Shown: piece by piece, positions 2,682 through 6,365 of the stretch
Layout of the letters: every line of letters begins with the position of its first letter
How positions within the stretch are numbered: the first letter of the stretch is position 1
Assembly: GCF_001815905.1 (NCBI RefSeq)
Contig: NZ_KV823250.1
Span: 1 to 64,000 of the forward strand
Length of the DNA stretch: 64,000 bases
DNA from: Brevibacterium sp. HMSC07C04
GTDB taxonomy: Bacteria > Actinomycetota > Actinomycetes > Actinomycetales > Brevibacteriaceae
Reading direction: 5' to 3'
The notes under the pieces: generated by a model
Told to the model about the DNA's origin: nothing
The model's database searches: none
The model's input: the letters and a program-made list of their open reading frames with translations, nothing else
Translations under genes and position numbers: made by a program

Positions 2682-3596
2682 ATGAAGAACCCTGAGCGAA
2701 AAGTCCGCAAAGCTGTTATTCCGGTTGCCGGACTCGGTACCCGTTTCCTCCCGGCCACGAAGGCCATCCCCAAGGAAATGCTTCCGGTGGTTGACAAGCC
2801 CGCCATCCAGTACGTCGTCGAAGAAGTCGTCGATGCGGGGCTGAACGACGTTCTCATGATCACCGGGCGCAACAAGCGGCCGCTGGAGGACCACTTCGAC
2901 CGGGTTGACGGGCTGGAAGAAACACTGCGGGCAAAAGGCGATGACGCCAAACTGGAAAAAGTCCAGAAGGCCAGCACGCTGGCGGATGTTCACTATGTGC
3001 GCCAGGGAGATCCCAAGGGCCTGGGCCACGCCGTTCTCAAAGCCGAGCAGCACGTGGGTGACGAACCTTTTGCCGTGCTTCTGGGCGATGACCTCATTGA
3101 CACGAACAACCCCATTCTGCCGACCATGATCAAGGTGCAGGAAGCTACGGGCGGTTCAGTTGTCGCGCTCATGGCGGTGCCCCCGGAAGACGTCAGCCTG
3201 TACGGCTGCGCAGCGGTTGAAGATGCTGCTGTTGAAGGTCTGGAAGTTGATTCGGCCGTCAAGATCACCGGTCTGGTTGAAAAGCCGGCAGCGGAAGAAG
3301 CCCCGTCGAACTTCGCAGTCATCGGACGCTATGTGCTCGCACCGGAGATCTTCCCCGTGCTGGCGCAGACCCCACCTGGCCGCGGCGGTGAGATCCAGTT
3401 GACCGACGCTTTGCAGACACTGGCGGAAGACCCGTCTTCGAATGGTGTCTACGGCGTTGTGTTCTCAGGCGACCGCTATGACACGGGCGACAAGCTCAGT
3501 TATCTCAAAGCTGTTGTCACCCTCGCCGGCCGCCGCGATGACCTGGGCAAAGACCTCAACGACTGGCTGCGCGACTACGTGAGCGCCCTTGACTGA
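2682..3596 (+). CDS. galU: UTP-glucose-1-phosphate uridylyltransferase
   Basis: Makes UDP-glucose from UTP and glucose-1-phosphate in the cytoplasm, supplying sugar for wall polymers and, through galE, UDP-galactose. It has 304 residues, the family's normal length. The nucleotide-binding loop VAGLGTRFLPATKAIPKEML is intact near residue 16, as are DKPAIQYVVEE and the C-terminal GDRYDTGDKLSYLKA. There is no ribosome site; a -10 box lies 6 bases before the ATG, so translation is probably leaderless. The downstream genes (Mog-like, rimJ-like) follow in the usual actinobacterial order. The glycan clusters in the rest of the window are its obvious consumers. Confidence 0.97.
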   Translation: MKNPERKVRKAVIPVAGLGTRFLPATKAIPKEMLPVVDKPAIQYVVEEVVDAGLNDVLMITGRNKRPLEDHFDRVDGLEETLRAKGDDAKLEKVQKASTLADVHYVRQGDPKGLGHAVLKAEQHVGDEPFAVLLGDDLIDTNNPILPTMIKVQEATGGSVVALMAVPPEDVSLYGCAAVEDAAVEGLEVDSAVKITGLVEKPAAEEAPSNFAVIGRYVLAPEIFPVLAQTPPGRGGEIQLTDALQTLAEDPSSNGVYGVVFSGDRYDTGDKLSYLKAVVTLAGRRDDLGKDLNDWLRDYVSALD

Positions 3597-3701
3597 GAAG
3601 GGTGATGCGGCAGGCGCTGCCCCAGATGCGCAGATGAGCATGCCAATGCGCGCTTCTGCCGCTGTGCGCTCATGCCCAATCGGCATCCGGGAGGTTCTCT
3701 G

Positions 3702-4307
3702 ATGACTGCGGGTCAGTGGCAGCCGCCTCACAGAAGTGCTGCGGTTGCGCCGCTCGGGGGCGATTCGCTGGCAGCGCAGGCGGCGACCTCCGTGCACGAA
3801 GAGCTCGAAAGCGCCGGTTTTGACTCCATCGAAGCACTCCTGCCGGATGTTGCCGGTGTGGGGCCGCTGTGCGATGCCTTTGCTGATTCGGCGGATCTGC
3901 TCGTGCTGGTCGGAGGGCTCAGCGCCGATGACAGCATGGATGTGGCCGGCGCTCTGTCACAGTTCACCGACACGCCGCTGCCGGGGCTGCAGGCGATCAT
4001 CTTCGATTCCGCTCGCCGTCACGGGGCTGCTCACGTGCTGTTCACGGCCCCGTGGGTTGGATGGGTCGGCACGACACTCGCTATTGCCCTGCCCGCTGAC
4101 GAGGCGGTGGCAGCTTCCGTCATGTCCGAACTGCTTCCGCTGTACTCCCAGCTGTTGGAGCAGCGCGACAGCGACACTGGGCCGGGCGGGCCCTCTGATC
4201 GTCTGCGCGGTGAATCTCGCAGCGGGCCCGGAAATGAACCCTCCGGCGGTGCTTCGATCCTTCAGATGCCGCGCCCTGTCACCCCGGATGACGAGGGTGA
4301 TGCTTAA
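3702..4307 (+). CDS. Degenerate MogA/MoaB-like (molybdopterin-binding fold) protein at the glp/moeA locus
   Basis: A 201-residue protein in the slot between galU and rimJ that other actinobacteria give to a MoeA-type protein (Glp). The segment from about residue 20 to 145 follows the MogA/MoaB pattern: DLLVLVGGLSADDSMDVAGAL aligns with the family's TTGGTG region, then PLPGLQAIIFDSARRHG, then TLAIALPADEAVAASVMSELLPL in place of the usual NLPGSP loop. The TTGG and NLPGSP catalytic/binding signatures are both lost, so cofactor synthesis is unlikely. The last 50 residues are polar and probably disordered. ATG at 3702 is chosen for its GGGAGG site 7 bases upstream. A non-enzymatic role, such as the divisome role reported for corynebacterial Glp, is inference. 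Confidence 0.6.
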   Translation: MTAGQWQPPHRSAAVAPLGGDSLAAQAATSVHEELESAGFDSIEALLPDVAGVGPLCDAFADSADLLVLVGGLSADDSMDVAGALSQFTDTPLPGLQAIIFDSARRHGAAHVLFTAPWVGWVGTTLAIALPADEAVAASVMSELLPLYSQLLEQRDSDTGPGGPSDRLRGESRSGPGNEPSGGASILQMPRPVTPDDEGDA

Positions 4308-4319
4308 GCGCGCGGCGCT

Positions 4320-5027
4320 GTGGGGCTGAGAGGCGTGGGTGCTCCGTGGTGGCCGATGCGACTGGTGGGCCCGCAGAGCTTGGTTCTGCGGGCGCTCAAG
4401 CGCTCTGACGCTGCGGCCTTTGCCGAGGTTCGGGTGGCTAATCGCGATTGGCTCAGACCGTGGGACGCAACTCTGCCCGGGGCTTCCGTGCCCGGCGGTT
4501 CTGCGGCCTGGGCGGCGAGCAGCCTTGACGAGCAGTCTTCCGATCCGGATCTCCGAGCGGCCCTTAAGGAGGAGCGCACCGCGTTTCACTTTATGCGCCG
4601 GGCATTGAAAGCACGGGCCAGAAGGGGAGAGGCGCTCCCGTTTGCCATTGAGATTGCCGGGAGTTTTCGCGGGCAGGTGAGCGTTTCGGATATTCAGTGG
4701 GGGTCGATCGGCTCAGCGCAGATCGGCTATTGGATTGATTCGCGCATGGCGGGGCGGGGGCTCGTTCCGCTTGCTGTGGCTATGACTGTCGACGCCTGTT
4801 TCTTTGAGCTGGGGCTGCACCGGGTGGAGATCAACATTCGACCCGAAAACGCCAAGAGCCTCCGCGTTGTCGAAAAGCTGGGATTTCGGTTTGAGGGTGT
4901 GCGCCGAGGGTACATGCACATTGCGGGAAAGTGGGCGGATCACCGCTCTTACGCCCTGCTTGCTGACGAGGTGCCCACCGGGCTGACCAGCCTCTACACC
5001 CGTGACCGCGGGTGGGCAGATGGGTGA
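4320..5027 (+). CDS. RimJ-like GNAT N-acetyltransferase
   Basis: Acetyl-CoA-dependent N-acetyltransferase of the RimJ/RimL family (235 residues); possible substrates are ribosomal or other protein N-termini. Family landmarks are LVLRALKRSDAAAF, the WLRPWD segment, GYWIDSRMAGRGLVPLAVAM (acetyl-CoA loop), HRVEINIRPENAKSLRVVEK and LGFRFEGVRRGYMHIAGKW. It starts 13 bases after the Mog-like gene, so the two are probably cotranscribed. The GTG start is uncertain; ATG at 4356 (MRLVGPQSLVLRAL) fits the family's N-terminus equally well. Position after galU and a MoeA-like gene is conserved in actinobacteria. Confidence 0.85.
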   Translation: MGLRGVGAPWWPMRLVGPQSLVLRALKRSDAAAFAEVRVANRDWLRPWDATLPGASVPGGSAAWAASSLDEQSSDPDLRAALKEERTAFHFMRRALKARARRGEALPFAIEIAGSFRGQVSVSDIQWGSIGSAQIGYWIDSRMAGRGLVPLAVAMTVDACFFELGLHRVEINIRPENAKSLRVVEKLGFRFEGVRRGYMHIAGKWADHRSYALLADEVPTGLTSLYTRDRGWADG

Positions 5028-5234
5028 GGCGCCCTGAAGGTGAGTGGGCAGGCGGAGCTCGGCTGGTGCCTCGGCAGTTGGGAAAAGCGTGCTGGCAGGC
5101 AGTGCGGGGCCGTGAATGTGAATAGACGCTGACAATGTGACAGACACACCGCAAAGCATCCCCCACCCAATAAGGGGTCTGCATATTGTTGTGTTCTGGA
5201 TGATCAGCGAAAACGGCGCCGGACGGACACATCT

Positions 5235-6365
5235 ATGAATTCACACAGCTCATCGCAGCCGCGCAGCACTCGGGAATCTGCACGCGGCGCGCAGAATGCT
5301 GCTTCGACTCACAGCGGTGCGTCAGCACACCGTGGTGCTGGCAACGGCGACGCTGCAGCCGGTGTGGACACGCGCAATGTGCGACGCGCGCTCGGAATCG
5401 GTTTTCTGCTCTTCAGCCTCACAACGATCGTCACGTTCTTCTTTTCCCTGTTCACGGCTCTGACCTGGGCGGTTCCCGTGCTCAGCACAGCCATGGCGCT
5501 CAGCTGCGTGCTGGTTGTCATAGCCATCAACGGCGAAGCCTCCGAAAGCGCAGTCGAGCGTCGTTCAGCTCCCGCCGGTCGCGCTGCTGATCGGGTGGCT
5601 GGTTCGCAGGGTGCTGCCGGTCGGACTGCCGGTGCTCAGGCTGGAACCGGCAAACCTGCGCCCGCAGCAAAAGCTGCCCCGACCGTAAAAGCTGCCCCGG
5701 CCGCGCAGCCGGCGCGCACTGCGCAGAAGACCCGCACCGCTGAGCCCACGCCGACGGTGAAAGCTGAGCCTTCCTCGGCCAAGGTGAGCCGGCAGACGCC
5801 CGCGCAGAAAGACAAGGCGACTGCCGCCTCGTCGGATTCAAAGCCTGCTTTTCGCGATAGCGGAGACAATAGCGAAGCCCGTGCTGAGGACGCGCGTCGC
5901 TTGGCGGCCAGCTCTGCGCGCCGCAACGATGCTGCAGGCCGAGAGGTGTTGGACCTCGAAGCTCCGACCGGCGAAATCCCAGTTGTCTCAACTGGTGTTC
6001 AGCGCACCCGAGAGGTCGTGGCGAGTGCTGAGTTTGCGCCTCGCCCGGTGCCGGAGCCCACGTACGTCAAGGTGGCTCGGGAGGCTGGTGAGAAAGCCGC
6101 GCAGGATGCCGCAGGCGATGCGCAGAAAGCTGAAGGCTCACCTGCAGAACGCGAATCCGCCGCCGAACACTTCGCGGCGGCCGACGGCACTGTTCCCGAA
6201 CTGGTCGATGCGGCAAAGGAAGATGACGGCACTGCGGCCCTGAAACACGGGCGGAAGGCAATCCGTGCCGACAAGCAGACCGCGCAGCTGGGCGCTGTGT
6301 CGCGTGCTGCTGAGGACGCCGCCTATGCAAAGGTCAACGATCTGCTGGCTCGCCGCCGCGCCTGA
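5235..6365 (+). CDS. Membrane protein with two TM helices and a long Ala/Pro-rich disordered tail
   Basis: Unrecognised 376-residue protein. Residues 1-50 are polar. Two TM helices follow at about 54-78 (LGIGFLLFSLTTIVTFFFSLF) and 81-100, placing both termini on one side. Residues 110-290 are low-complexity, rich in Ala, Lys and Pro (repeats of the KAAPTVKAAPAAQ type). The last 80 residues are charged and end KVNDLLARRRA. It follows the degenerate Mog-like protein by two genes. In Corynebacterium a membrane partner of the gephyrin-like divisome protein Glp is encoded close to glp, and this architecture would fit such a partner, but no homology can be shown here. The 207-base upstream gap has a possible -10, TATTGT at 5184. 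Confidence 0.7.
   Translation: MNSHSSSQPRSTRESARGAQNAASTHSGASAHRGAGNGDAAAGVDTRNVRRALGIGFLLFSLTTIVTFFFSLFTALTWAVPVLSTAMALSCVLVVIAINGEASESAVERRSAPAGRAADRVAGSQGAAGRTAGAQAGTGKPAPAAKAAPTVKAAPAAQPARTAQKTRTAEPTPTVKAEPSSAKVSRQTPAQKDKATAASSDSKPAFRDSGDNSEARAEDARRLAASSARRNDAAGREVLDLEAPTGEIPVVSTGVQRTREVVASAEFAPRPVPEPTYVKVAREAGEKAAQDAAGDAQKAEGSPAERESAAEHFAAADGTVPELVDAAKEDDGTAALKHGRKAIRADKQTAQLGAVSRAAEDAAYAKVNDLLARRRA

Follow-up and report, generated by a model that had tools for sequence, protein, structure and literature searches.

Several actinobacterial and other proteins with molybdopterin-enzyme folds, or with membrane partners of such proteins, provide a background for the locus described here. In Corynebacterium glutamicum, Glp is described as binding FtsZ and GlpR through a loop of its domain IV, and the same account states that glp and glpr, where present, are found together (PMC10522489). 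MoaB2 of Mycobacterium smegmatis, which has a MoaB fold that lacks the catalytic Asp, is reported to bind sigma-A (PMC11656743); MoaB-fold domains are thus recruited to other roles elsewhere. SepX of Streptomyces is described at division septa together with FtsZ (PMC8748795). We have analyzed the first 64000 nt (the window) of contig NZ_KV823250.1 from Brevibacterium sp. HMSC07C04, whose genome size is 2.47 Mb. The window contains galU, a gene for a degenerate MogA/MoaB-like protein (hereafter the Mog-like protein), rimJ and a GlpR-like gene, in that order and all on the + strand. We put at about an even chance that the Mog-like protein is a MogA/MoaB-fold pseudoenzyme kept as an adaptor. A search of open-licence papers, by titles and abstract openings, found no literature on this gene in Brevibacterium.

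Fold of the Mog-like protein

The relation of the Mog-like protein to MogA is weak by sequence, yet real. Its match to Pfam PF00994 (MoCF_biosynth) has an expectation value (E) of 8.4e-4 and 19.5 bits, where the family cut-off is 26.6, and a sequence search of the PDB returned Cnx1G chains and 3tcr at E 0.006-0.04, with unrelated chains from 0.13. An hhalign comparison of the 11 Mog-like relatives with one MoaB encoded at a galU-rimJ locus gave a probability of 97% and E 4.5e-11.

The AlphaFold2 model, built from an alignment of 13 rows (the window protein, six relatives and six locus MoaBs), has a mean predicted local distance difference test score (pLDDT) of 75.9, with ten-residue means of 68-92 for residues 11-150 and 45-66 beyond. 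It superposes on single-domain MogA/MoaB structures (PDB 3tcr, 3pzy and 4twg among them) with Z scores of 16-20, compared to 12-13 for MoeA-type domains (Cnx1E and gephyrin E). The best match is 3tcr_A, with a Z of 20.0 and a root mean square deviation of 2.1 for 150 aligned residues (VIA-align range 9-160). MoaB2 (8byr) scores 19.2, level with the MogA and Cnx1G entries at 19-20; as six MoaBs entered the model alignment, the MoaB likeness is partly non-independent, which tells against giving it full weight. The four-domain MoeA architecture is absent from this protein of 201 amino acids, which has the weak MoCF match only. Domain IV is likewise absent, since one MogA-fold domain extends to about residue 158 and is followed by a low-confidence tail. 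A MoeA remnant (domain III) was considered as the identity of the gene and ruled out by the two Z ranges. Judged from the model, the Mog-like protein is a single-domain MogA/MoaB fold and not a shrunken MoeA or Glp.

The catalytic loops have been lost. The TTGGTGxxPxDxTPE signature is replaced by VGGLSADDSMDVAG in the window protein, and NLPGSP reads ALPADE. This loss had been noticed earlier in the window protein and extends to all 11 members, none of which has the TTGGTG or NLPGSP loop; the DG loop is deleted in all five members aligned with locus MoaBs. The positions invariant across the 11 proteins are Met, Leu, Pro, Gly and Phe, with one Thr nearly invariant.

Molybdenum cofactor genes

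The nearest named relative among the matches listed is Brevibacterium ravenspurgense CCUG56047 (galU 93% and rimJ 77% identity; locus L181), in a scan that may omit the window's own species. Neither the window genome nor that of B. ravenspurgense has a MoaC match or a MoCF match over the cut-off, each of which is present in 55 of the 57 genus genomes. MoeA_N is also without a match in both, in a survey of molybdenum cofactor (Moco) families that did not search for MoaA, MoaE or molybdoenzymes. These two Moco-poor genomes (2/57) nevertheless still carry the Mog-like gene. The second weak MoCF match of the window's own genome, C22:96391, was not accepted as a Mog homologue; by eye, its frame looks like TsaE. 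Because the genome lacks MoaC, MoeA_N and an over-cut-off MoCF among the families searched, a molybdopterin role for the Mog-like protein is very unlikely, in keeping with the expectation of the preliminary description of this locus.

Distribution, selection and the C-terminal tail

A five-member Mog-like profile matched 21 of the 57 genus genomes at E 0.001, 11 of them at 136.7 bits or more and the next at 37. All 11 carriers have the gene between galU and rimJ with an open reading frame, and they form one clade (support 86/84) in a galU+rimJ tree of 46 rows. B. luteolum and Brevibacterium sp. CS2 are among the carriers. Across 149 genomes of the order, the profile gave some match in 93; five, all genus members, reached at least 225 bits, and the next reached 71. 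The weaker order-wide matches were taken as ordinary MoaB/MogA uninspected, with 20 first-look candidates scored in most genomes.

Nonsynonymous to synonymous rate ratios (dN/dS; Nei-Gojobori, 201 aligned codons) were calculated between the window and B. ravenspurgense. The values are 0.122 for the whole Mog-like gene, 0.095 for residues 1-153 and 0.36 for the linker, compared to 0.061, 0.18 and 0.21 for the neighboring galU, rimJ and glpR; they come from a single species pair, which limits how far they can be pressed. Substitutions at codon positions 1, 2 and 3 number 15, 13 and 76. The last 18 codons show zero amino-acid changes, although their synonymous sites are saturated. The domain is under purifying selection, and pseudogene status of the gene is rejected by this test. 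The family clearly exemplifies a Moco-enzyme fold that selection maintains even though the Moco genes looked for are missing.

The tail carries a short motif. IL-x-[ML] occurs in 9 of the 11 tails, compared to a mean of 0.05 and a maximum of 3 over 5,000 rounds of shuffling, and [ST]IL-x-[ML] in 8; since the motif was picked post hoc from the alignment, these figures are descriptive. Its change in the remaining two (L041 and L100: KVVPLNR) counts against the adaptor proposal. The window's ASILQMPRP resembles the part of the glycine receptor beta loop that binds gephyrin, a likeness that is likely coincidental.

Origin of the Mog-like gene

The locus was compared among 80 rimJ loci, which are the matches listed and not a census (25 are Brevibacterium by title and 55 are others). 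The order galU-moeA-moaC-moaB-rimJ occurs in six of the 80. It is also seen in the four outgroup loci L063, L065 (with one extra open reading frame between moaB and rimJ), L066 and L068, and the full order ending in GlpR occurs in L063, L065, L066, L227, L252 and L258. The Mog-like gene occupies the moaB slot, so that loss of moeA and moaC with moaB left behind is one reading. By this comparison the Mog-like gene may be the leftover moaB of the locus. The preliminary description had proposed that a MoeA-type gene was replaced by a single-domain MogA-like protein. The single MogA-like domain holds, but replacement is unneeded, as some related loci have moaB between moaC and rimJ.

Several findings weigh against this descent. 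Of the 55 listed non-Brevibacterium loci, only seven have moaB in the slot (six in the full order and one as moaC-moaB-rimJ only), 20 have moeA with no moaB found, and the nearer Micrococcaceae-type loci have neither moeA nor moaB. Because so few listed loci have moaB in the slot, its presence in the direct ancestor is an assumption. Locus MoaBs are not set apart by the Mog-like profile: the four outgroup ones score 40.5-51.4 bits, and other matches in the order, taken uninspected, reach 71. In the protein tree, the 11 Mog-like rows group together with support of 100/100 and have a long branch to themselves. The separate group in the best topology is that of the MogA genes of the genus itself, but grouping the Mog-like proteins with them is not rejected (approximately unbiased test, p-AU 0.405). 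Retention of the gene also requires at least two losses within the genus, the alternative being one late gain.

The GlpR homologue

Two genes downstream, the preliminary description had noted a membrane protein whose homology to the receptor, in its words, could not be shown. It can be. An hhalign comparison of the genus GlpR family (18 rows) with four outgroup proteins from the same position gave 98.1% and E 9.6e-14 over 78 columns, which run from the PTY stretch to a C-terminal [LV][DN]x[VIL]LxRRRA, and a mixed GlpR profile (three genus rows included) matches the window gene at 2.6e-12. The C-terminal LARRRA is invariant in all 18 genus sequences, with similar ends in the four outgroup sequences. 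From these comparisons, which were with GlpR-position proteins of other families and not with C. glutamicum GlpR itself, the gene at 5235-6365 is a GlpR homologue.

The two transmembrane (TM) helices and long disordered tail that had been described for this protein are borne out by hydropathy (residues ~51-103) and low complexity, respectively. An N-terminal TM helix precedes the hairpin in 16 of the 18 aligned genus GlpR sequences; in the copies from the window and from B. ravenspurgense the hairpin stands alone, and the three forward frames between rimJ and the window GlpR start encode no TM helix. The shortened start aligns with an internal Met, in an MDxxM[TN]-like stretch, of the longer copies, and could be an internal start there. 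Several genus GlpRs, whether or not the Mog-like gene is present, share a [TS]x[ED]IPVV-like motif in their second disordered region (window residues ~245-251). Inspection of the GlpR alignment by eye, without a statistic, revealed no motif tracking the presence of the Mog-like gene. SepX of Streptomyces is a presumed orthologue of GlpR.

The locus was inspected in 42 of the 57 genus genomes, and in each of them GlpR comes after rimJ; three of these loci end at a contig edge. GlpR lies two genes on in all 11 Mog-like loci (the L104 copy runs off its contig) and is also present in all 31 loci without the Mog-like gene. The co-occurrence of the pair, which had been suggested as a check on their association, therefore holds in one direction: every Mog-like locus has GlpR, but GlpR is kept without the Mog-like gene. 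The mixed profile finds GlpR as the protein after rimJ in 77 of the 80 listed loci (exceptions L202, L209 and L231), where a text pattern had found it in 46; outgroup locus L068 has no recognized GlpR.

GlpR without Glp

A tree of 64 MoeAs contains a branch of 38 rows that includes C. glutamicum Glp (support 100/98), and none of the 13 MoeAs sampled from the genus (seven genomes, with just one of the two copies of G004) falls within it. A second tree, made by a quick method and rooted on four genus rows, added 22 MoeAs from 10 of the 13 genomes in the G029 family, whose galU locus most resembles those of Paenarthrobacter, Arthrobacter, Sinomonas and Kocuria; none of these is in the Glp clade. 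Four duplicates were removed before the first tree and 14 Glp-locus rows before the second. Long-branch flags on C. glutamicum Glp and several genus rows speak against reading the first tree too firmly. The genus genomes hold very different MoeA types, with L107, L108, L110 and L112 on a branch of 1.9 changes per column.

Among the matches listed, 12 Micrococcaceae-type loci, one titled Vibrio cholerae, have galU-rimJ-GlpR with no moeA found. The Vibrio cholerae entry (strain 35D, L234) has a galU-rimJ-GlpR stretch like that of Arthrobacter-type loci and is probably assembly contamination. Two short contigs titled Bifidobacterium breve metagenome-assembled genome (L254 and L255) carry moeA and rimJ, L255 also galU, and are possibly mis-binned. 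Three genomes of family f20 (G077, G093 and G135; GlpR-profile E 1.2e-5 to 2.9e-12) and one of family f10 (G033; 1.8e-7) match the GlpR profile without a MoeA_N match, and are further possible Glp-free GlpR lineages. Four genomes of family f4 (G027, G075, G091 and G106) have neither MoeA_N nor GlpR matches, which fits co-loss and argues against GlpR without Glp as a rule. On these sequence comparisons, GlpR without Glp seems broader than this genus, though not the sole outcome.

GlpR is kept where the sampled genus MoeAs show no Glp, and in a genome without a MoeA_N match. Retained where no Glp was found, it must therefore be able to work without Glp or with another partner. Glp-free GlpR offers a naturally occurring way to separate the functions of GlpR that require Glp from those that do not.

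Possible functions

Under the adaptor proposal, the Mog-like protein would have dropped its catalytic loops and been kept for something other than molybdopterin. Its gene possibly goes back to an ancestral locus of the order galU-moeA(Glp)-moaC-moaB-rimJ-glpR, in which moeA and moaC were lost and moaB persisted. The protein would assemble into trimers or hexamers as other MogA/MoaB proteins do. Each subunit would present the conserved tail motif (ASILQMPR in the window protein) at the end of a flexible linker, and the oligomer would engage a protein partner as a multivalent adaptor. The GlpR homologue would work without Glp in this lineage, minus its first TM helix, with a tie to the divisome or elongasome that is assumed from homology.

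The Mog-like protein could instead be a regulator of the MoaB2 kind, with the housekeeping sigma factor as its binding partner, as in M. smegmatis. The shared fold (8byr, level with the MogA entries) agrees with such a role, as does the lack of the catalytic Asp in MoaB2, for which a part in Moco synthesis is considered unlikely (PMC11656743). However, the available passages of that account mention no conserved tail, and the Mog-like gene is found in one genus clade only; we regard this role as doubtful. A retained small-molecule function, with a changed pocket that accommodates either a different ligand or the tail of the protein itself, would fit the strong conservation of the domain between the close pair and the good confidence at which most of the core is modeled, but is improbable given that no conserved charged residue stands in place of the lost loops.

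The preliminary description raised the possibility of a minimal Glp: the Mog-like protein would take over from Glp at the division site, as the partner of GlpR on the cytoplasmic side. The shared locus, with GlpR two genes on wherever the Mog-like gene occurs, is consistent with this, as are the lack of a Glp-clade MoeA in the genus sample, the selection on the Mog-like gene without the Moco genes searched for, and a genome-encoded FtsZ with the C-terminal DSLDIPSFLK. However, the protein is a MogA/MoaB domain by its Z scores and lacks domain IV, the part of Glp described as binding FtsZ and GlpR (PMC10522489); it therefore cannot work in Glp's way. GlpR, moreover, does not need the Mog-like protein, as it is kept in the Mog-free genus loci and in the 12 listed Micrococcaceae-type loci without moeA. 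Replacement of Glp is quite improbable and a minimal Glp acting in Glp's manner is unlikely, but the Mog-like protein may be a GlpR partner in some other way. In one such version, which is very improbable, a dead MoaB domain became the cytoplasmic partner of GlpR after the loss of Glp, through its oligomer and tail motif; if true, this Brevibacterium clade would divide with a counterpart of the G domain of gephyrin, in the place taken by the E domain in corynebacteria.

The idea that the gene is decaying and about to disappear is scarcely credible: 46 of the 57 genus genomes have no strong Mog-like match and the window protein is 23-28% identical to nine of its ten relatives, but the frame open in 11/11, the low dN/dS of the domain, the unchanged 18-residue tail and the skew toward third codon positions strongly oppose it.

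Organization of the locus

The features of the locus are given in Table 1. The coordinates given earlier for the Mog-like frame, rimJ and the membrane protein are correct.

Table 1. Coordinates of genes and sequence features at the galU-rimJ locus of the window
Feature	Position	Strand	Evidence
galU (UTP-glucose-1-phosphate uridylyltransferase), left anchor	2682..3596	+	Pfam NTP_transferase 6e-29
Mog-like gene, 201 aa (amino acids), degenerate MogA/MoaB fold, galU-rimJ interval	3702..4307	+	
MogA/MoaB-fold domain, residues 10-158, without catalytic loops	3729..4175	+	structure match and loop check
Short C-terminal motif ASILQMPR, residues 184-191, after low-confidence linker	4251..4274	+	IL-x-[ML] count
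rimJ-like GNAT acetyltransferase, right anchor	4320..5027	+	Pfam Acetyltransf_3 1.2e-19
GlpR homologue, 376 aa, N-terminus shortened (no first TM helix, no first disordered region)	5235..6365	+	
GlpR TM hairpin, residues 51-103	5385..5543	+	hydropathy and alignment
GlpR PxPxPxPTY stretch, residues 269-278, also in GlpR of other families	6039..6068	+	
GlpR C-terminal LARRRA, residues 371-376	6345..6362	+	alignment

We infer that the Mog-like gene starts at 3702 rather than at the ATG at 3672, because B. ravenspurgense and two further relatives start at the same [MV]TAGQ; in the latter two, the start codon is a GTG that overlaps the galU stop. The anchors are widespread, with galU matched at E <=1e-40 in 30 of 39 genomes (the window's own counted) and rimJ in all 57 genus genomes. 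To the left of the locus lie an MscL-like gene (78-542, - strand) and an SAF/CpaB-like gene (781-1491, - strand), both named by eye.

Comparison with known systems

The locus shares with the Glp/GlpR system of C. glutamicum, as far as that system is described in the available account, the galU, rimJ and GlpR neighborhood and a GlpR homologue with a TM hairpin and a long disordered cytoplasmic part. It differs in that Glp is a four-domain MoeA with an FtsZ loop, whereas here there is a single MogA/MoaB domain; in addition, GlpR is described with three TM helices in C. glutamicum and the window copy has two. GlpR of the known system binds Glp and Wag31; in the window genome MoeA_N gave no match. 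The Mog-like gene, like that of Glp, also lies beside rimJ and glpR, but its product is not a MoeA, falls outside the Glp clade and lacks the FtsZ-binding domain IV loop and the Pro-rich hinges.

With the MogA/MoaB proteins of Moco biosynthesis (PF00994), the Mog-like protein has in common the fold over residues 9-158 or so. It is distinguished from them by the absence of the catalytic loops, the extra motif tail and a genome from which the Moco families searched are missing. MoaB2, as reported, is likewise a single MoaB domain without the catalytic Asp and with a non-Moco role (PMC11656743; PDB 8byr), but it is distant in sequence and the tail motif sets the Mog-like protein apart from what is described of it.

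SepX is described as an actinobacterial membrane protein with unstructured cytoplasmic regions whose membrane parts are best conserved (PMC8748795), features that it shares with the GlpR homologue. The G domain of gephyrin has the MogA fold and is described as the trimeric part of a scaffold, joined to a receptor-binding MoeA (E) domain (PMC11733289); the Mog-like protein resembles the former and has no counterpart of the latter.

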